Of a DNA stretch of 64,000 nucleotides, positions 11,213 to 22,464 are shown piece by piece. The notes beneath the pieces were generated by a model. It searched no databases and was not told where the DNA came from. It saw only the letters and a list, made by a program, of their open reading frames with translations. Made by a program: the position numbers and the translations under genes. Position 1 is the first letter of the stretch. Each line of letters begins with the position of its first letter. Origin of the DNA: Synechococcus sp. PCC 7336 (GTDB taxonomy: Bacteria; Cyanobacteriota; Cyanobacteriia; Thermostichales; PCC-7336); assembly GCF_000332275.1 (NCBI RefSeq), contig NZ_CM001776.1:1225268-1289267 (forward strand), written 5' to 3'.

Positions 11213-11652
11213 GGACTGTACGGCTTTGCGTTCGTCCTTCTCAGTTTCCATACAAACCAGTTTGTTAAATGTTGTGACATCTCGAAATTGACTGGCCAGA
11301 GCTGAAATTCTTTTGCCACAAACTTTGTAGGGATTTTGAGGAACTTCAGTAGAGCTGTTACTAGCGTTGACGGGAGGTGATGCTCTCAATAATATACAGA
11401 CTAGTTGGTATACATACGACCAACAGATCGTCCATAGGAGAGCAAAGGGCAATGCGATCCATGCAGGACTCAAGGCGTCTGGCCTTTCGAATTTGCACAG
11501 ACAAACCTAGTAGGCAGCTCGGAATGAATCTATCCCCAACTCCCAAGAGTATATAAAAGAAGCTCTCAATACCTGCATGATGGTGAGTCAGAAAACAACA
11601 CTGCAGGATAATTTTCAGGCGTTCAGCGATCTGTTCAAAAACCTTCTCTCAA
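11213..11652. other. Intergenic, no gene recognised
   Basis: About 440 nt between the HerA-type gene and the truncated IS copy. The open frames here are short, overlap each other and show no known domain. No inverted repeat matching the IS end (ACCTCTTGC) occurs here, so the left end of the IS has been lost rather than displaced. Confidence 0.6.
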
Positions 11653-12299
11653 TTGGGTTTTTTCCTCGGGATGAAACTATTGGGGTGATGAGTCGCAATT
11701 TCTTGATATCCGTTGTCTTGCAAGCTTTGCGTCTCGGGATGGAAATGAATGCCAGAGGCTTTGAACAGATTGAAATCGTGGCGACGCCCCTGACCAAAGA
11801 AGGTACAGATGACTTCTCTGGTTTGCTGGTCGAGGATGATTTGACATTTGAGCGTATGTTGCTTCTTCTTGCCGGAATAGAAGTGTCTTTGCTTGCGATT
11901 GGGGCGTTCAATCGGAGTTTCTGTTACATCCATCACCACCACTTCAGGTCTGCCAAAGCCTCGAAACAAGCGCTTTTTACCGGGTAAACGAAATAAACCA
12001 GAGCCCATCAGACTATCCTCAAGCCAATGAACAATGCGGCAAACGGTCGATTCGGACATCCCCCAATCGGTGCCGATATGAAAGTATGGACGATATTCTC
12101 GCCAATACTCTAGGGCCACCAGCACAAGGTCCTCCAAGCAGAGGCTGGGTTTGCGACCCCGTCCTGGGGTTTCAGGCAATTGGGCTTTGAAGCTTTTGAC
12201 CATGCTTTTAAAGGTGGGGCGATGCACACCAAATCTGCGTTTAAACGATTTAGGGTTGAGTCGTTGGGCTGATTCGTAGTTCATCGGCAGCAACATCAA
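11649..12299 (-). pseudogene. IS5-like transposase, 3'-truncated (copy 1)
   Basis: The first 216 residues of a DDE transposase with an N-terminal helix-turn-helix (GMSESTVCRIVHWLE). The DDE_Tnp_4-type catalytic core begins at VVVMDVTETPIERP, and a second block is QGRRHDFNLFKASG. It matches copy 2 up to FIPRKKP and then ends where the IS is cut at about 11653. The catalytic Glu region (ERICIEHVNR in copy 2) is absent, so it cannot be active. Confidence 0.88.
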
Positions 12300-12410: not shown

Positions 12411-13562
12411 CTAATTACTGTATGTTATGTCTATAATGTGAGGAGCAAAAAATATCTTTGGGCGCTCCACCATATCTGATTTAGCCAGTATTCCTACATC
12501 AATCAAACGTTCTATATCAGTACTGGCAGTCGGATAGGATATGTCACACATTTCTTTTACCTGAGGGATTGTGACTGCTGGTGATTCAAATAAACTTTCG
12601 ATGATTCGATTGAGCCGAATATTACCTCTAGACTTGTCTAAAATCTCCATATATTTATTGCGAAGCACCAGTAACTCGCCAAAACGCCTAATAGCATCTC
12701 TCGACTGTTCGATAGTTCCTCGTAGACAAAATTTAATCCAGCCTTCCCAATTACCCTTTGAACTCACTTCGAACAATAACTTTATATATTCATCTTTATA
12801 CTTATCAAAGAAGGCACTGAGATATAGCCAAGGCTTTTTAAGATTGCACTGCTCGTAAATCATCAAAGATAGGAGCAATCTTCCAACTCGACCATTTCCA
12901 TCAAGGAAAGGATGAATCGTTTCGAATTGATAGTGTGCCATAAAGCAGAAGATTAGCTTATCGACATCCTTTTCTTTATGAATAGCTTTTTCAAGATCGT
13001 ATAAACAAGGTTTTAGCTCATTTGGAGGCGGTGGAATAAAGCGTCTGTCTGAACCAATATGAACTTGGACACGCCGGAAATTGCCTGGATCTTTCTGTGC
13101 TCCTCTCACGCCTGCCAATAGTTCTCGGTGGATTTCTCGAATTAGGTTCAGTGAGAGTGGCCTTTCAGTCAAAAGATGCAAGCCCAACTCTAACGCTCTG
13201 TTATAGTTCCACACCTCTTGCCAAGAGCCCATTGGATCGCTCGCCGATTTTGGCTCTTTTGGATCGATCTCAAACAGCAAAAGCTGCTCTGGCGTTGCGT
13301 AAGTCCCTTCTAGGCTAGAAGAGCGCAAGGCTTCACGGCGTTGCAGTGGCCGCAACAGCAAATTGTAATTTGGAATGTTGTACCCAACGCCATCAAGCCG
13401 CGCTAATTCCTCACGCGCCAGGGCTAGTAGTTTCCAAACTTCAGTTGAGTTGTTCCATTTTATCGGTAGAGGATTAGGGATATATGCCCAGTCCTGCTTG
13501 TCACCTGTTGATATTTTCGAGAGTTTACCAGGAAATTCACCTGAAAATATATCCTCGTCCAT
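12411..13562 (-). CDS. Fic-domain protein with C-terminal winged helix
   Basis: A 383-residue protein with an N-terminal Fic_N region. The Fic core motif HPFLDGNGRVGR is at about residues 215-226, and the C-terminal part is a winged-helix (TIPQVKEMCDISYPTASTDI). Fic enzymes transfer AMP (or another nucleotide moiety) to target proteins. An inhibitory-helix motif of the form S-x-x-x-E-G (SSSLEG, near residue 82) suggests the class with built-in N-terminal autoinhibition. The gene looks intact and sits just inside IS copy 1. The palindromes upstream are probably bound by its own winged helix (inference). Confidence 0.9.
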   Translation of the reverse strand: MDEDIFSGEFPGKLSKISTGDKQDWAYIPNPLPIKWNNSTEVWKLLALAREELARLDGVGYNIPNYNLLLRPLQRREALRSSSLEGTYATPEQLLLFEIDPKEPKSASDPMGSWQEVWNYNRALELGLHLLTERPLSLNLIREIHRELLAGVRGAQKDPGNFRRVQVHIGSDRRFIPPPPNELKPCLYDLEKAIHKEKDVDKLIFCFMAHYQFETIHPFLDGNGRVGRLLLSLMIYEQCNLKKPWLYLSAFFDKYKDEYIKLLFEVSSKGNWEGWIKFCLRGTIEQSRDAIRRFGELLVLRNKYMEILDKSRGNIRLNRIIESLFESPAVTIPQVKEMCDISYPTASTDIERLIDVGILAKSDMVERPKIFFAPHIIDITYSN

Positions 13563-13896: not shown

Positions 13897-14605
13897 ATGG
13901 TTGTTCCCTTCCCTATCGTAAGCCTGCGCCCCTCCCAGCTATTTCCCTTTAGCGGAAGACACCGTAAAACCCTGCTGCTTAAGTTCAGGTATATCAGGTG
14001 CCTTCCGATAAAATGAAGAGCGATCGCACCTCCGCCAAGAAACGCGATCGTCAAGAACTATAACCACCGGTATTCTAAGCGATGTCCACTACTGGAAACA
14101 ACTCCAAGCGCACCAAGGTCTTTGTCAGCTACAGCCACAAGGATACTTCTGCTCTAGATCGAATGCTGGTGCATTTGGCCCCACTTGAGCGTGAAGGATT
14201 GGATCTTTGGGTCGATACAAAAATCAAATCAGGTCAGGACTGAGAAACGGAAATTAAGACGGCTTTGAATGAGGCTAGGGTTGCTATTTTGCTGGTCAGT
14301 GCTGATTTCATAGCATCTGACTTTATCTATAAGGATGAGCTGCCACCGATATTCATGGCTGCAAAAAAGGAAGGACTTGTTGTCCTACCCGTAATTCTAT
14401 CTACGTGCCGCTTCAGTCGAAGTCGTTTGGGCATATTTCAGGCGGTCAATGAACCTTCTAAACCACTTCTGGAGTTGTCCTACAATGAGAAAGAAAAAGT
14501 CTGGGACCGGTTAGGTAGTCGAGTTGAAGAGCTTTTTGGATTGGAGGAAGAACAAAAGTCTAGTCAACGGGTTCCATTGCAGCCAGTTGTTTCAAATGAG
14601 GCTAA

Positions 14606-15466
14606 GAGCGTGTCTGAAAAGGTCAGCAGATAAAGTTGAGAGGCTGAGTTAGAGCCTCCCAACCAATGACACGCCAATCCTACGACACCGATCTAACCCC
14701 TGCCCAGTGCGAGCTTCTAGCTCCGCTATTACCGCCAGCTAAGCCAGGCGGTCGTCCCCGCAGCGTCAACGTTTTCGAAGTGGTCAATGCCATCTTCTAT
14801 CTGTTGAGAGCCGGATGTGCCTGGCGTCTGCTGCCCCACGACTTCCCCGCTTGGCAAACGGTCTACCATTACTTCCGTCAGTGGGAAGCCGATGGCACCT
14901 GGGAAGCTCTCAACCATGCTCTGCGCCAGCAACTGAGAGAAACGGTGGGGCGCAATCCTTCTCCCTCGGCAGCCTGCCTGGATTCCCAATCGGTCAAAAC
15001 AGCTGGTGCCGCTCAAGAAACAGGCTTTGATGGAGGCAAAAAAGTTAAAGGTCGCAAGCGCACTATCCTGGTTGATACGATGGGTCTACTGCTGGGTGCC
15101 AAGGTCCACAGTGCCCGACGCTCCGACCATGACGGCCTCACCTTGCTGGGGATTTGGTTTGCCAGTATGTGGAGTTGCTTGCAATTGATTTGGACCGATA
15201 AAACCTTTGGTGGCAAATCTTTTGTGGCTTGGGTTGAGCAAGCGTTTGGCTGGACTATTGAAGTCGTACAACGGCCTGCTGAGCAAAAAGGGTTCCAGCT
15301 TTTACCTCGGCGATGGGTGGTTGAGCGCACCTTTGCCTGGTTTGGTCGATACCGTCGCTTGAGCAAGGACTACGAATATTTGCCCACTACGAGTGAGACG
15401 ATGCTTTACGCTGCTATGGTCAATCTCATGCTTCGTAGGCTGGCTTGAGACTTTTCAGACACGTTC
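14606..15466 (+). mobile_element. IS5-family insertion sequence, 861 bp, inside the TIR-FGE gene
   Basis: Terminal inverted repeats are GAGCGTGTCTGAAAAG on the left and GAACGTGTCTGAAAAG on the right (read inward). They are flanked by a 3-bp target duplication TAA at 14603-14605 and 15467-15469. One transposase gene fills the element. The duplication is still exact, so the insertion looks recent. Confidence 0.9.
14666..15448 (+). CDS. IS5-family transposase
   Basis: A 260-residue protein with the IS5-type N-terminus (LTPAQCELLAPLLPPAKPGG) and RAGCAWRLLPHDFPAWQTVY. The DDE core has LDSQSVKTAGA (first Asp), WTDKTFGGKSF (second Asp) and RRWVVERTFAWFGRYRRL (Glu). Length and motifs look complete, so the element may be active. 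It is divergent from the other IS in this window, with no close similarity to it. Confidence 0.93.
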   Translation: MTRQSYDTDLTPAQCELLAPLLPPAKPGGRPRSVNVFEVVNAIFYLLRAGCAWRLLPHDFPAWQTVYHYFRQWEADGTWEALNHALRQQLRETVGRNPSPSAACLDSQSVKTAGAAQETGFDGGKKVKGRKRTILVDTMGLLLGAKVHSARRSDHDGLTLLGIWFASMWSCLQLIWTDKTFGGKSFVAWVEQAFGWTIEVVQRPAEQKGFQLLPRRWVVERTFAWFGRYRRLSKDYEYLPTTSETMLYAAMVNLMLRRLA

Positions 15467-16787: not shown

Positions 16788-17045
16788 TCACCTCTCCCAA
16801 TCTGCTAAAGCTTGAATCGCTCGCGCATTGCTCTCGATGGCGCGGGCGTTGCTATCGACAAGCTGACGAGTTTCCCTCAAATCATCATGCACAGCCCTAA
16901 GGTCTTGCTCGATCGCTTCAAAGGCTTGTCTGGAAAACTCAAAGCTTTCTCGCTGTGCGTTCGCCAGTTGCGCGATTAGATCGGCAGTACGATCCTGCTT
17001 GATGGTCAACTGCGCGATCGCTGCTTGAATTTGTTCGGGCGTCAT
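16788..17045 (-). CDS. Small coiled-coil protein (MTPEQIQAAIA family), hypothetical
   Basis: 85 residues beginning MTPEQIQAAIAQLTIKQ, with a helical body and a terminal repeat NARAIESNARAIQALADWER. Such short coiled-coil proteins, often repeated as paralogues, are frequent in cyanobacteria and have no assigned function. The fragment at 13849-13896 is a truncated relative. It lies immediately downstream of the antirepressor gene on the same strand. Confidence 0.6.
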   Translation of the reverse strand: MTPEQIQAAIAQLTIKQDRTADLIAQLANAQRESFEFSRQAFEAIEQDLRAVHDDLRETRQLVDSNARAIESNARAIQALADWER

Positions 17046-17083: not shown

Positions 17084-17836
17084 CTACAAGCATCCGTTCA
17101 TCCAATTCAGCCGCCGCTCCACATCAAAAGTATTCATGGTGGTTGCCGCCAGCGCCTCAGTCCATGCGTCCGAGTTCCGGCCCATGCCTATGCTTTCGAG
17201 CAATACCCACATCTTCTTCGTATCGGCACTCTTCCCTTTCATCACGTCATATCGGCGGCATAGGGCAGTGATGCCAAAGTTCTCGTAAGCCTGCTGGGTA
17301 CTGGAATCGATGGTGCGATCGCGATACTCAGTCCTAACAATCTCGCCAGTCCCCAGAATCGCAGCTTTGAATGGCTCAGGTGCAAATTGGGCGATCGCTT
17401 CCCGCTTCTCTACGAGTAGGCGCTGTTCGGCGGCAGCCTTAGCTTTGGCTTCTGCCACCTTCAACTCAAGCTCTAAGATCTTGCGCTGTTGGACTGGGAT
17501 GACCTCGGCAGCCTTCTTTGCCAGCCGTTCACACCGCAAAAAATATTCTCTAGTGCTACGACCTTGCTCGGTGCCAGCCATCATGGCGAGCATCTTGAAG
17601 CAATCGGTGGTGAGCGTAACTTGCTCTGCATGCTTTGTGCCTGTCTGGTGCTGCTTATCAATATTGATAAGCAGGTAATCTACTCCCTCCACAAAATCTT
17701 GCAACAGCTTCCGTTTTGCATTGCCTTTGGTGCTATATCCAATCCACTTCCAAGCCTGCTCGAAGTCAATAGGAAAGTCTTCCCCAGAATCGAGCATCGA
17801 CATGATAGCTGTCTCGGTGAGAGCGATCGCAGACAT
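17084..17836 (-). CDS. Phage-type antirepressor (MSV199/AntA-like)
   Basis: 250 residues from ATG 17836, whose first base overlaps the stop codon of the GIY-YIG gene (TGATG), so the two are translationally coupled. The N-terminal half (DFEQAWKWIGYSTKGNAKRK, FVEGVDYLLIN, TTDCFKMLAMMAGTEQGRST) matches the MSV199/AntA-type domain of phage antirepressors. The C-terminus has a coiled coil and a conserved-looking FGITALCRRYDVM segment. These proteins relieve repression in temperate phages, which here points to a phage remnant or phage-derived island. Confidence 0.75.
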   Translation of the reverse strand: MSAIALTETAIMSMLDSGEDFPIDFEQAWKWIGYSTKGNAKRKLLQDFVEGVDYLLINIDKQHQTGTKHAEQVTLTTDCFKMLAMMAGTEQGRSTREYFLRCERLAKKAAEVIPVQQRKILELELKVAEAKAKAAAEQRLLVEKREAIAQFAPEPFKAAILGTGEIVRTEYRDRTIDSSTQQAYENFGITALCRRYDVMKGKSADTKKMWVLLESIGMGRNSDAWTEALAATTMNTFDVERRLNWMNGCL

Positions 17837-18396
17837 CACGCGGCCTCCTCGATAAGGAGGAACAGTCCATCCCGGCCTTCTAGTGGGCACTCAAAATAGT
17901 TCAGTAGCTTCTCTATCGTGTCTATATCAACCCGCTTAAAGCGGTTCCCATAGAGCTTGGAAATCGTATTGCTTGACAAGCCAATTGCATCGACCAAATC
18001 TCGCTGAGTCAGGTCGCGCTCGGCCATCAAGACCTTCAGTCGGCATTTCAGCGTTGTCTCTCCTAGGTCTTTCATCGCTGGCACCCGAGTGGTTCGCAAG
18101 CCATTCAATGGAGGATCGAACCACTCAATAAGCGCCGCTTCGACCTCGTCTAGTAGGTCTGCATCGACCTCTAAATAGGCAATGCGAACCCCTGTTCCCT
18201 TGCTCAGGTCATTCAGCCTGTGATGCTGAATCCATCTCCTATAGAGATTGGCAGACCGCCCGACGTACTGGACTTTATCTTGACCATTAATCGCCAAGTA
18301 AACAGCACTGCACTCAGGCAGATCGCCCCTCTCTTCTAAGGTGACAGATGGCAGCGATAAGGGGTCGAGAGTGGAAGAGGTAAAGGTTTCAGTCAT
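17836..18396 (-). CDS. GIY-YIG nuclease domain fused to an XRE-type HTH
   Basis: 186 residues. The N-terminal half carries GIY-YIG elements SAVYLAINGQDKVQYVGRS and LYRRWIQHH, plus the late Glu-rich IEWFDPPLNG. The C-terminal half is a helix-turn-helix (LTQRDLVDAIGLSSNTISKL). It starts 8 nt inside the end of the upstream small gene. GIY-YIG domains cut DNA; with an XRE domain on the same chain the protein may be a repressor with a nuclease-derived sensor, or a site-targeted nuclease. Both readings are inference. Confidence 0.8.
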   Translation of the reverse strand: MTETFTSSTLDPLSLPSVTLEERGDLPECSAVYLAINGQDKVQYVGRSANLYRRWIQHHRLNDLSKGTGVRIAYLEVDADLLDEVEAALIEWFDPPLNGLRTTRVPAMKDLGETTLKCRLKVLMAERDLTQRDLVDAIGLSSNTISKLYGNRFKRVDIDTIEKLLNYFECPLEGRDGLFLLIEEAA

Positions 18397-18667
18397 CGTC
18401 TTCCACCTTTACAAGATCATCTAGGCTCAGCGCCTTGCCAGCCCATCGAGAGCAAATCCTCCGCAACTTAATGGCGTTGAGAAAATCCCCCTTTTCTAGC
18501 TGCCCATTTCGCGCTCTTGTGAGGGTGTGCCGGGTCACGACATCATCCTTGTACCGATCTTCGATTTCCTTGTGGACGGCATACACAGACTCCATCTCAC
18601 CGCCCTCTTTGCGCGGCCACCATTCAGAAATGTCTACGTATGCCTTCATATCAATGCAAACAGTCAC
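18389..18667 (-). CDS. Small hypothetical protein, first gene of the GIY-YIG/antirepressor operon
   Basis: About 92 residues from GTG 18667, chosen because a GGAGGT box sits a few bases upstream; longer in-frame starts reach 18712. The sequence (MKAYVDISEWWPRKEGG, then RHTLTRARNGQLEKGD) has a possible HTH-like middle but no recognised family. It overlaps the next gene by 8 nt. It is the most promoter-proximal gene of a three-gene unit, as expected for a regulator. Confidence 0.55.
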   Translation of the reverse strand: MTVCIDMKAYVDISEWWPRKEGGEMESVYAVHKEIEDRYKDDVVTRHTLTRARNGQLEKGDFLNAIKLRRICSRWAGKALSLDDLVKVEDDD

Positions 18668-18710
18668 ATTCACCTCCAGAAATACGGTAATCGCTGACTG
18701 ATTACCAGGC

Positions 18711-18787
18711 ATCCTGATTACAGGATAGCTGACTATCTAGTTATTGGAAATCAATATATTGACAATCAGTTAGCAGGATAGCATAAT
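18711..18787 (+). promoter_or_regulatory. Rightward sigma-70-type promoter with CAGGAT operators
   Basis: TTGACA (18759-18764), a 17-bp spacer and CATAAT (18782-18787) form a near-consensus promoter facing the small + strand genes from 18867. A palindrome ATCCTG-ATTA-CAGGAT is at 18711-18726, just upstream of the leftward operon. A further CAGGAT half-site at 18774-18779 lies inside the promoter spacer. A repressor bound there would block both directions, as in a phage switch. Confidence 0.6.
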
Positions 18788-18866
18788 TAGGGCATAGAGA
18801 AAGCGCCCCCGACTACCAATCTGAAGCGCCTTCTCCACAAACAAAAGCTATTTGGAGCTTTCCACC

Positions 18867-19025
18867 ATGCTATCCCAACCCAAAACGGCTGCTCTGAGGA
18901 GCCGTCTCGATCGCCTACAGCGCGAGCAACTCGAATACGCCCCCGCCCCCGCCAGTCTGGTTGAAATCCAACTCGATATCAGGATGGTCCGCAATCAGCT
19001 AGCTGCACTCCGGCAGACTGCCTAG
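18867..19025 (+). CDS. Small helical protein, hypothetical (52 aa)
   Basis: 52 codons from ATG 18867 to TAG 19025, reading MLSQPKTAALRSRLDRLQRE and ending RNQLAALRQTA. The composition (Leu, Gln, Arg in heptads) suggests a coiled coil. It is the first gene downstream of the strong promoter at 18759-18787, with a GGAGCTTT-type weak ribosome binding site. No family recognised. Confidence 0.5.
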   Translation: MLSQPKTAALRSRLDRLQREQLEYAPAPASLVEIQLDIRMVRNQLAALRQTA

Positions 19026-19097
19026 CCCCCTCACCCAGCATTGCCCCTCGCAGTGCTGGGCTCCTTTATAGACCAACCACCCATGGGGATACGAGCA

Positions 19098-19355
19098 ATG
19101 TTTATCGACCAACACGAAATCTTTTACCCCGATGCCCCCTTCCCCATATTGGAGGAGCAAATCGCGGACCTCGAAACCACCATCCGCGAAATCGAAGAGG
19201 ACCCCGCCTGGTACGCAGAACTGAATTGCATGACCTTGGCACACGTCGATCGCAAACTCGATCGCCTTTACTGCCGTCTAGAAGCCCTGCAAAGCCAGCT
19301 AGAAGGCGTGCAGCGAGTAGAGCGCGAGTTTGAGGCGGCAGCAGCGATCGCCTAA
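19098..19355 (+). CDS. Small coiled-coil protein, hypothetical
   Basis: 85 residues from ATG 19098 (FIDQHEIFYPDAP). The helical body is EEQIADLETTIREIEEDPAW and DRKLDRLYCRLEALQSQLEG. In-frame starts exist upstream at 19041 and 19083. Same strand and spacing as the previous small gene, so probably one transcript. No known function. Confidence 0.5.
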   Translation: MFIDQHEIFYPDAPFPILEEQIADLETTIREIEEDPAWYAELNCMTLAHVDRKLDRLYCRLEALQSQLEGVQRVEREFEAAAAIA

Positions 19356-19827: not shown

Positions 19828-19891
19828 GGGCCACTATACCCACACTTGGTGTTAGCATATATGCACCAGATGTGGGGCCACATCTACACCC
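19828..19891. promoter_or_regulatory. Repeated GGGCCAC boxes before the RHH gene
   Basis: GGGCCACTATACCCACAC (from 19828) and GGGCCACATCTACACCC (19875-19891) are two similar sites 47 bp apart. The second ends 17 bp before the ATG of the ribbon-helix-helix gene. RHH proteins commonly bind such paired sites in their own promoters. Confidence 0.4.
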
Positions 19892-19908
19892 GTTCTGCAG
19901 TTATCATC

Positions 19909-20142
19909 ATGACACGATCAACGTTTAATCTGCGTTTGCCAGAAGCCCTCAGCGCGAAGGTAAAAGCCAGGGCTGATAAAACAGGCAAGAGCCTAAATCA
20001 GGAACTCTCTGACCTGATTAACTACGCCTTCTTGCTGGAAGATTTAACTGTAGAAGATTCACAAGTAGTGATTCGTCACGCAAAGGGCTACAGGGAAGAT
20101 CAAGAGGTAATTGTTCCCAATCCTCAGAAATTATATCCATGA
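19909..20142 (+). CDS. Arc-type ribbon-helix-helix protein
   Basis: 77 residues from ATG 19909. TRSTFNLRLPEALSAKVKAR followed by ADKTGKSLNQELSDLINYAF is a textbook Arc/MetJ ribbon-helix-helix with the beta-strand FNLRLP. It is a small DNA-binding repressor or antitoxin. Its TGA overlaps the ATG of the next gene (ATGA), so the pair is coupled. Confidence 0.75.
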   Translation: MTRSTFNLRLPEALSAKVKARADKTGKSLNQELSDLINYAFLLEDLTVEDSQVVIRHAKGYREDQEVIVPNPQKLYP

Positions 20143-20725: not shown

Positions 20726-21067
20726 ATGAGCGTTCAAGTTGAATTCCAAGCTACAGCCCCACCCTTACGCTGGGATGAGGCAGGGGGCATTCGGATTGGT
20801 CAAAGCCGAGTGGCCCTCGACAGTTTGCTCGCGACCTATCACGCTGGCTCAACTCCCGAAGAGATCGCCGTTCAGTATCCTATCCTTCCTCTCACGGAGA
20901 TCTACGCTGCCATTGCTTACTACCTCGCCCATCGCCAGCAGATGGACGTCTACTTGGAGCAGCGCCGTCAACAAGCTCAACAGCGGCGGAAGCGCTTTAC
21001 ACAAGACCATAACTTGACTGACCTGAGACAACGGCTACTGGCTCGCCGTCAGTCTCAAAGAGGCTGA
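20726..21067 (+). CDS. DUF433 antitoxin
   Basis: 113 residues with the DUF433 pattern GGIRIGQSRVALDSLLATYH, then GSTPEEIAVQYPILPLTEIY and AAIAYYLAHRQQMDVYL. DUF433 proteins are HTH-like antitoxins encoded just before DUF5615 PIN-like toxins. It has a basic C-terminal tail and ends 6 nt before the toxin GTG. Confidence 0.88.
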   Translation: MSVQVEFQATAPPLRWDEAGGIRIGQSRVALDSLLATYHAGSTPEEIAVQYPILPLTEIYAAIAYYLAHRQQMDVYLEQRRQQAQQRRKRFTQDHNLTDLRQRLLARRQSQRG

Positions 21068-21073
21068 TGTCAA

Positions 21074-21379
21074 GTGCGTCTATTGACCGACGAAAACTTC
21101 AATGGGGCAATATTGCGAGGGTCGATCGGACGTTTACCCGAGCTGGATGTAGTCCGAGTGCAGGATGTGGGGCTGATTCATGCTGACGATCCGACGATTC
21201 TGGATTGGGCTGCAAATGAAGAACGCATCTTGCTCATTCACGACGTCGCCACCATCACCCTGTATACCTACGAGCGCATCAGCCGTGGACTGCCCATGCC
21301 AGGGGTTGTCGAGGTCATTGCAACTGCCCCCATCGGACAGGTCATTGATGACTTGGAATTATTCATTCTGTGCAGTTAG
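21074..21379 (+). CDS. DUF5615 PIN-like toxin
   Basis: 101 residues from GTG 21074. RLLTDENFNGAILRG has the N-terminal Asp/Glu/Asn of the Mut7-C/DUF5615 PIN-like fold. VRVQDVGLIHADDPTILDWA and RILLIHDVATITLYTYERI carry the later conserved Asp residues. Presumed RNase toxin paired with the DUF433 antitoxin. It lies just left of IS copy 2. Confidence 0.88.
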   Translation: MRLLTDENFNGAILRGSIGRLPELDVVRVQDVGLIHADDPTILDWAANEERILLIHDVATITLYTYERISRGLPMPGVVEVIATAPIGQVIDDLELFILCS

Positions 21380-21469: not shown

Positions 21470-22464
21470 ACCTCTTGCAAAATTAATCTGTGGTGCTATG
21501 GAAGACTTTGGCTGAGGAGCTAAGCAGCAGCAAGCTCATAGTTGTAGATAGCGGCAATCAGATTACACCGCAGGCCATAACGTTGTTCTGCGATTGCGGT
21601 AGCGTTCTCGCAGAATCCTGAAAATCTTGAGACTTCGGTTGACATGTTCAATGCAGATGCGCTCGCGCCCCAACTCTTGATTGTAAGATTTCTCCAGGGA
21701 TGAGAGCTCTCCACCCTTGGGCTTTTTCCTCGGGATGAAACTATTGGGGTGATGAGTCTCAATTTCTTGATATCCGTTGTCTTGCAAGCTTTGCGTCTCG
21801 GGATGGAAATGAATGCCAGAGGCTTTGAACAGATTGAAATCGTGGCGACGCCCCTGACCAAAGAAGGTACAGATGACTTCTCTGGTTTGCTGGTCGAGGA
21901 TGATTTGACACTTGAGCGTATGTTGCTTCTTCTTGCCGGAATAGAAGTGTCTTTGCTTGCGATTGGGGCGTTCAATCAGAGTTTCTGTTACATCCATCAC
22001 CACCACTTCAGGTCTGCCAAAGCCTCGAAACAAGCGCTTTTTACCGGGTAAACGAAATAAACCAGAGCCCATCAGACTATCCTCAAGCCAATGAACAATG
22101 CGGCAAACGGTCGATTCGGACATCCCCCAATCGGTGCCGATATGAAAGTATGGACGATATTCTCGCCAATACTCTAGGGCCACCAGCACACGGTCCTCCA
22201 AGCAGAGGCTGGGTTTGCGACCCCGTCCTGGGGTTTCAGGCAATTGGGCTTTTAAGCTTTTGACCATGCTTTTAAAGGTGGGGCGATGCACACCAAATCG
22301 GCGTTTAAACGATTTAGGGTTGAGTCGTTGGGCTGATTCGTAGTTCATCGGCAGCAACATCAATTATCTTCGCCCTGTGGTATGCCATATTTAGCGTTCC
22401 ATTAGCAAGCACTATGAGACGAAGGAAAACATATAATCTTATCACAAAATTTTTTGCAAGAGGT
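21470..22464 (-). mobile_element. IS5-like element, copy 2, both ends present
   Basis: Bounded by ACCTCTTGCAA (21470-21480) and its inverse TTGCAAGAGGT (22454-22464), about 995 bp. It contains one transposase gene. The flanking bases do not show a clear target duplication. It is in the same orientation as copy 1 (11653-12401), about 98-99% identical to it over about 750 bp by eye. Confidence 0.9.
21520..22363 (-). pseudogene. IS5-like transposase (copy 2), frameshifted near its C-terminus
   Basis: HTH and DDE core as in copy 1, and here including ERICIEHVNRSLKIFRILRE with the catalytic Glu. The main frame ends early at 21563 (RNRRTTLWPAV). One base out of frame, RYGLRCNLIAAIYNYELAAA runs to a stop at 21520, which is the ending expected for this family. 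A single-base change near 21588 therefore breaks the last 20 or so residues. Activity is doubtful but not excluded. Confidence 0.8.

Follow-up and report, generated by a model that had tools for sequence, protein, structure and literature searches.

A predicted modular switch of cyanobacterial plasmids in an IS-flanked chromosomal locus of Synechococcus sp. PCC 7336

The analysed DNA, hereafter the window, is a stretch of 64,000 nucleotides from Synechococcus sp. PCC 7336, a cyanobacterium with a 5.07-Mb genome in a single contig. The features of the locus are listed below, in window coordinates.

16788..17045, minus strand: coiled-coil ORF, 85 aa, downstream of the Ant gene (phmmer E 5e-4 and a profile match)
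17084..17836, minus strand: third leftward gene, AntA-type antirepressor-like protein (Ant), 250 aa, starting at ATG 17836 (PHROG anti-repressor; Pfam AntA below threshold)
17836..18396, minus strand: GIY-YIG nuclease domain joined to a Cro/C1-type HTH (GIY-YIG-HTH), 186 aa (Pfam, above cut-off)
18389..18667, minus strand: small regulator-slot protein, 92 aa, probable GTG start with SD GGAGGTG, stop at 18389; homologues in plasmid regulator slots
18686..18706, no strand: inverted repeat GGTAATC-N7-GATTACC, ahead of the SD of the small gene
18711..18726, no strand: predicted operator 2, ATCCTG-ATTA-CAGGAT, with the counterpart ATTCTGTAATCAGATA in L038, L039 and L116
18759..18787, plus strand: rightward promoter TTGACA-17-CATAAT
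18764..18779, no strand: predicted operator 1, AATCAGTTAGCAGGAT (other strand ATCCTGCTAACTGATT), inside the promoter spacer
18798..18835, plus strand: conserved 5'-leader stem-loop (blastn, covariance model, covariation)
18867..19025, plus strand: first rightward ORF, 52 aa from ATG, SD GGAG (ORF list)
19041..19355, plus strand: second rightward ORF, 104 aa (ORF list)

The original prediction, made from the letters alone, had described a leftward unit of three genes (small gene, GIY-YIG-HTH and Ant) with overlapping ends. All three ORFs are present: the small gene and the GIY-YIG-HTH gene share 8 nt, and the ATG of Ant overlaps the stop of the GIY-YIG gene by 1 nt, within TGATG. The same order of three genes was searched for in other genomes, and in its exact form was found nowhere else. 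A relative of the coiled-coil ORF comes after the GIY-YIG gene in a Fischerella plasmid. The locus is flanked by transposase ORFs of the same IS family and in the same orientation, at 11649-12299 (cut short) and 21563-22363, and can therefore be described as an IS-bounded island; a further transposase ORF lies at 14666-15448. The bounds formed by the IS pair are composite-transposon-like. Of the neighbouring ORFs that were examined, none was recognised as a phage structural gene.

The rightward promoter is near consensus, as had been proposed, with 11 matches out of 12. The CAGGAT half-site in its spacer was located at 18774-18779, and the ATCCTG-CAGGAT palindrome is indeed found beside it, at 18711-18726. 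Taken alone the palindrome is modest, 0.19 copies being expected per window at up to one mismatch, and the spacer inverted repeats are individually weak statistically in several loci. The promoter/operator region is conserved far above chance. Searched against plasmid sequence totalling 7.3 Gb, the 39 nt covering promoter and spacer matched at just two places (94.9%, E 1e-7, and 92.3%, E 5e-6). Each lies on a plasmid of Nostoc sp. ATCC 53789, directly upstream of a small-protein homologue. The 23-nt core, searched at 0-1 mismatch in 386 genomes, was found only in the genome under study and in one other (G101), where it adjoins a small-protein homologue as well. Identical or one-mismatch copies of operator 1 occur only upstream of such homologues, and none of the three operator-sharing loci has a GIY-YIG gene at that position. 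Operator-like units (ATTCTG...), counted by eye, number three in the plasmids and two in the window.

A scan of the own genome with the operator pattern returned 21 scattered matches with no second cluster among them, so that no regulon is claimed. The inverted repeat at 18686-18706, which the original prediction had overlooked, is a candidate operator or leader hairpin; it is absent from the plasmid loci L038 and L039. A binding site for GIY-YIG-HTH at 18724-18743 was also considered and was set aside as a by-eye guess.

The second feature overlooked at first is the leader stem-loop, of sequence GAGAAAGCGCCCCCGACTACCAATCTGAAGCGCCTTCTC and loop GACTACCAATC. By blastn it was matched in 15 cyanobacterial plasmid records (E<=0.05, best 1e-8), and the same promoter precedes the hairpin in plasmids. 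The loci named with this stem-loop are the window, L032, L033, L035, L061, L070 and L133-L141. At every locus inspected it lies within a short operon leader, and the operon diverges from a small gene in the regulator slot, annotated as HTH or hypothetical; in most of 18 loci scanned the -10 box and the loop motif are 21-28 nt apart. The stem shows double changes in 6 of its 10 outer pairs, and 88% of the cells are paired, versus 33-57% when the pairing is slid. A covariance model built on it recovered the stem-loop of the own genome with an E of 2e-13, and others in further genomes. Of the new genome loci scoring E<=1e-5, 13 out of 17 are preceded immediately by a divergent XRE gene and carry a TTGAC-type promoter; the remaining four, without the divergent XRE gene, are L183, L186 and two terminator-like matches. 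The low-scoring matches L192 and L193, terminator-like hairpins in 2-Mb genomes, were not accepted as members.

The own genome holds no second exact copy of the stem-loop, and Rfam returned no match of weight, the CopA and MIR2118 matches being dismissed as far below gathering scores. Against phage sequences, the leader gave nothing beyond chance, and the promoter region no matches or chance-level ones. In L038, L039, L116 and L086 a second hairpin class, with a loop around GGAAAACTTC / GGAAACTTTGG, occupies the position that the first class has at other loci.

The window thus has the TTGACA promoter, the leader stem-loop and the divergent regulator by which the plasmid switch is defined here. 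Two genes conserved in the plasmids, namely the first gene of the operon (cluster 3) and the gene after the regulator (cluster 2), are both missing from it, which makes the locus a variant of the switch rather than a typical member. The first rightward ORF has no relative in the loci compared, and the second none in plasmids; since the conserved first gene is lacking, the target of the switch may be another one at this locus, or the switch may be a relic. No description of the plasmid switch or of its leader was found in the literature, as far as an incomplete coverage goes.

Plasmid counterparts of the promoter, the operator in its spacer and the leader are nearly always divergent from a regulator gene, and the regulator itself varies. 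In L032, L038, L133 and L138 the first operon proteins are 80-89% identical, whilst the regulators have no detectable similarity; the protein after the regulator is likewise 59-76% identical between plasmids with unrelated regulators. By these comparisons the slot is exchangeable, and is occupied by a plain HTH protein, by the small protein or by a GIY-YIG-HTH. The predicted operators are placed over the promoters as in immunity regions, an operator-like site lying in the rightward spacer and a second one upstream of the small gene, and the spacer operator differs along with the regulator between loci. On this sequence evidence, a modular switch that is widespread on cyanobacterial plasmids is represented here by a chromosomal copy flanked by IS elements. 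The bidirectional switch of regulator and operators that had been predicted is therefore retained, its promoter, spacer operator and leader recurring in cyanobacterial plasmids. The phage-style label is not: promoter, leader and regulators are nearest to plasmids, and clear phage relatives exist for Ant only.

For the small gene, GTG 18667 is a more probable start than ATG 18712, because its homologues align from the GTG; with this start, the promoter and the palindrome fall outside its coding region. The homologues are about 50% identical and occupy the regulator slot of plasmid loci with a common operator region. No Pfam domain was found in the protein, an ASCH match (E 0.11) was dismissed, and the AlphaFold model is all-helical and of low confidence (pLDDT 44). 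The original prediction had assigned the CAGGAT sites to GIY-YIG-HTH. Since the operators are almost identical in three plasmid-type loci that have the small protein only, the sites follow the small protein where the GIY-YIG gene is absent, and the small protein probably binds them.

In GIY-YIG-HTH, both domains exceed the Pfam cut-offs (GIY-YIG, PF01541, 26.3 bits versus 22.6; HTH_26, 57.1 bits versus 22). The catalytic core, Y33, Y44, G46, R54, H58, E86 and N98, is kept nearly without exception among 35-38 family members. The damage or cut sensor that had been suggested finds no support in these residues, which point to a working nuclease. With its active site conserved and its HTH drawn from the pool of solo regulators, the protein looks like an active operator-directed nuclease, or a nuclease-repressor. 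Of 386 genomes sampled across the phylum, 120 contain relatives at E<=0.001, many of which match only in the HTH or only in the GIY domain. Relatives are also present in 35 plasmid records, every one of them cyanobacterial according to the organism list. Most homologues have no antirepressor neighbour, an outcome that the original prediction had itself named as one that would refute it. Phage matches were limited to the HTH of two phages, with no phage relative over the GIY domain, and a search of viral contigs with the single protein gave no match. Frequently the gene lies behind a short HTH gene, the two overlapping at their ends; elsewhere, where it carries an HTH of its own, it encodes the sole regulator beside the divergent operon, as in L032, L033, L035 and L070. 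In these four loci, where the spacer contains an inverted repeat (p 0.005 in L033 and L070, 0.06-0.10 in L032 and L035), GIY-YIG-HTH is likely to bind the operator of its own promoter; in the window such binding is doubtful.

The AF2 model of GIY-YIG-HTH is of low confidence (pLDDT 56), and neither this model nor that of the small protein is strong enough to serve as an argument. Foldseek returned nothing at E<=0.001 and only Cro/HipB-like HTHs at E>=0.05. The meaningful PDB matches of the GIY-YIG profile are the UvrC GIY-YIG domain (1yd6) and Cro/C1-type proteins; TAL-effector matches were rejected as repeat artefacts, every stretch shown scoring below 6 bits.

GIY domains of other chimeras are 38-61% identical to that of the window, and the HTHs attached to this domain fall into three or more classes, each also found as a solo switch regulator. 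This combination makes domain shuffling within one pool of regulators a well supported reading of the sequences. The L034 chimera has an HTH that barely differs from the solo regulator L176 (146 bits). The window HTH is nearest to the solo regulators L074, L136 and L189, yet distant (40-46 bits), and its class accompanies other operators in L074, L189 and L063. The L034 chimera (L034:4536-6486, Nostoc C057 p057_H) adjoins TnsA/TniQ-type transposon genes.

Ant matches PHROG anti-repressor families with E of 1.5e-9 and 1.1e-8, and Pfam AntA below threshold (E 7e-4, 20.5 bits versus a cut-off of 27). It had been labelled MSV199-type; the Pfam MSV199 match is below cut-off (E 0.2), and AntA-type is the better description. 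Relatives occur in cyanophages, a Nodularia phage antirepressor reaching E 2e-21. Gloeothece plasmids have a relative located behind an HTH gene, and at certain Nostoc-type loci a gene of Ant or KilA-N type lies within the divergent operon. Among the loci compared, only the window has an antirepressor-family gene directly after the GIY-YIG gene on the same strand. In a Dolichospermum-type plasmid (L099:4938-6381), an AntA-type gene is interrupted by a stretch with a GIY-YIG ORF of 233 aa, possibly a homing endonuclease inside an antirepressor gene.

From the comparison of loci, the preferred model takes the shared promoter and leader, the exchange of regulators, the co-occurrence of operators and small protein, the conserved catalytic residues and the domain shuffling; repression, cleavage with its target, and the role of Ant are what we infer. 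The fixed promoter and leader stem-loop would drive the rightward operon, and the divergently encoded regulator would occupy operators at two places, one within the promoter spacer and one ahead of the regulator gene, shutting off the operon and limiting its own synthesis. The small 92-aa protein would be the operator-specific repressor, acting on both promoters via ATYCTG-N4-YWGRTW sites. GIY-YIG-HTH would be a working nuclease, with a DNA-binding domain from the same pool of switch regulators, and would most likely act on DNA with cognate operators, either adding to repression at its own locus or cutting rival elements that carry a related switch, or both. The AntA-type protein would probably relieve repression by binding a regulator. 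As a whole, this explanation, of a plasmid switch with the small protein as repressor, GIY-YIG-HTH as working nuclease and Ant relieving repression, is given a probability of roughly two in three.

GIY-YIG-HTH might itself be the main repressor of both promoters, as an I-TevI-like nuclease doubling as autorepressor, with the small protein as co-regulator. It is the only switch regulator in the four plasmid-type loci named above, the slot of L134 is filled by a regulator consisting of an HTH alone, which shares 52% identity with the HTH of GIY-YIG-HTH, and I-TevI is a GIY-YIG enzyme that is a proven autorepressor and hardly cuts its bound operator (PMC2988022). The operators of the window match loci with the small protein only, and the window HTH class goes with the other operators of L074, L189 and L063, which renders this assignment unlikely for the window. 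A lysis-lysogeny switch left by a prophage, in which Ant would be the antirepressor and GIY-YIG-HTH a repressor with a damage or cut sensor, would account for the cyanophage relatives and PHROG matches of Ant and for the divergent architecture. It is very improbable: phage sequences match neither the promoter region nor the leader above chance level, GIY-YIG-HTH has relatives on plasmids and none in phages over the GIY domain, and the intact catalytic residues give no sign of a degenerate sensor.

The locus could also be the inert remains of a plasmid that had integrated, bounded by IS elements and with its function gone, as would fit the IS copies at both sides, a broken TIR ORF and the absence of conserved plasmid genes from the rightward operon. 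The three leftward ORFs, the active-site residues, promoter, operators and hairpin are all intact and match distant plasmids, and inertness is not considered a likely state. That the GIY-YIG gene is a homing endonuclease merely parasitising regulator loci agrees with the interrupted Ant gene of L099, with remnant-like GIY-YIG starts after the HTH genes in L182 and L188, and with a weak match to the intron endonuclease family TIGR01453. At many loci the gene overlaps an HTH gene or comes right after one, and in some it encodes the only regulator; it is thus not simply a passenger, and this origin appears improbable.

Lambdoid phage immunity regions exchange regulator and operator between conserved flanks, as the plasmid switch appears to do, and share with it divergent promoters, an HTH regulator (CI/Cro-type) and predicted operators over the promoters. 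The plasmid switch differs in being carried by cyanobacterial plasmids, in its constant leader stem-loop and in a regulator that is sometimes fused to GIY-YIG and has no CI-type cleavage domain. AntA/AntB phage antirepressors resemble Ant in its AntA-like N-terminal region and its PHROG matches; Ant is below the Pfam cut-off, lies in a plasmid-type locus and has a predicted function. I-TevI, the GIY-YIG endonuclease of the T4 td intron, is a transcriptional autorepressor that binds its operator, where it cuts roughly 100-fold less than at its homing site (PMC2988022). GIY-YIG-HTH is likewise a GIY-YIG family member at a promoter, with an N-terminal catalytic and a C-terminal DNA-binding domain. 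It differs in being free-standing in a regulator operon, with a Cro/C1-type HTH and without zinc finger, long linker or intron. Odn of phage ICP1, a chimeric GIY-YIG/T5orf172 nuclease with the origin-binding domain of a rival, cuts that rival and may drive module swapping (PMC8263062). The likeness holds at the family level, a GIY-YIG superfamily domain being joined to a DNA-binding domain common to related elements (the HTH of L034 and the solo L176). In GIY-YIG-HTH the domain order is reversed, the shared domain is a switch repressor HTH and not a replication initiator, and cleavage is predicted.

GIY-YIG-HTHs might be weapons between plasmids, their nuclease and sibling-switch HTH cutting the switch operators of rivals and so driving the exchange of regulator-operator modules between conserved flanks, with the constant leader RNA element marking the shared operon; this we regard as tentative and somewhat unlikely. 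The interest of the locus lies in a leader that is conserved, in regulators that are exchanged and in a nuclease-HTH chimera that recurs. Large cyanobacterial plasmids gain an immunity-region-like control module recognisable by sequence, which brings with it a putative leader RNA family absent from Rfam and the nuclease-regulator chimera. The question is raised whether nuclease domains on repressor HTHs keep related mobile elements in check and cause regulators to be swapped, and the exchanged operator/regulator pairs could serve as a natural orthogonal repressor set for cyanobacteria.

Several other genes of the island were recorded. A Fic-family protein at 12411-13562 has a strong PADLOC SoFic match (E 2e-105). 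The TIR-domain ORF at 14082-14633, apparently broken into two frames, adjoins an IS and an FGE-sulfatase gene. To the right of the switch lie an Arc/HicB-type RHH gene (19846-20142) and a DUF433-DUF5615 pair (20726-21379), whose arrangement is toxin-antitoxin-like.
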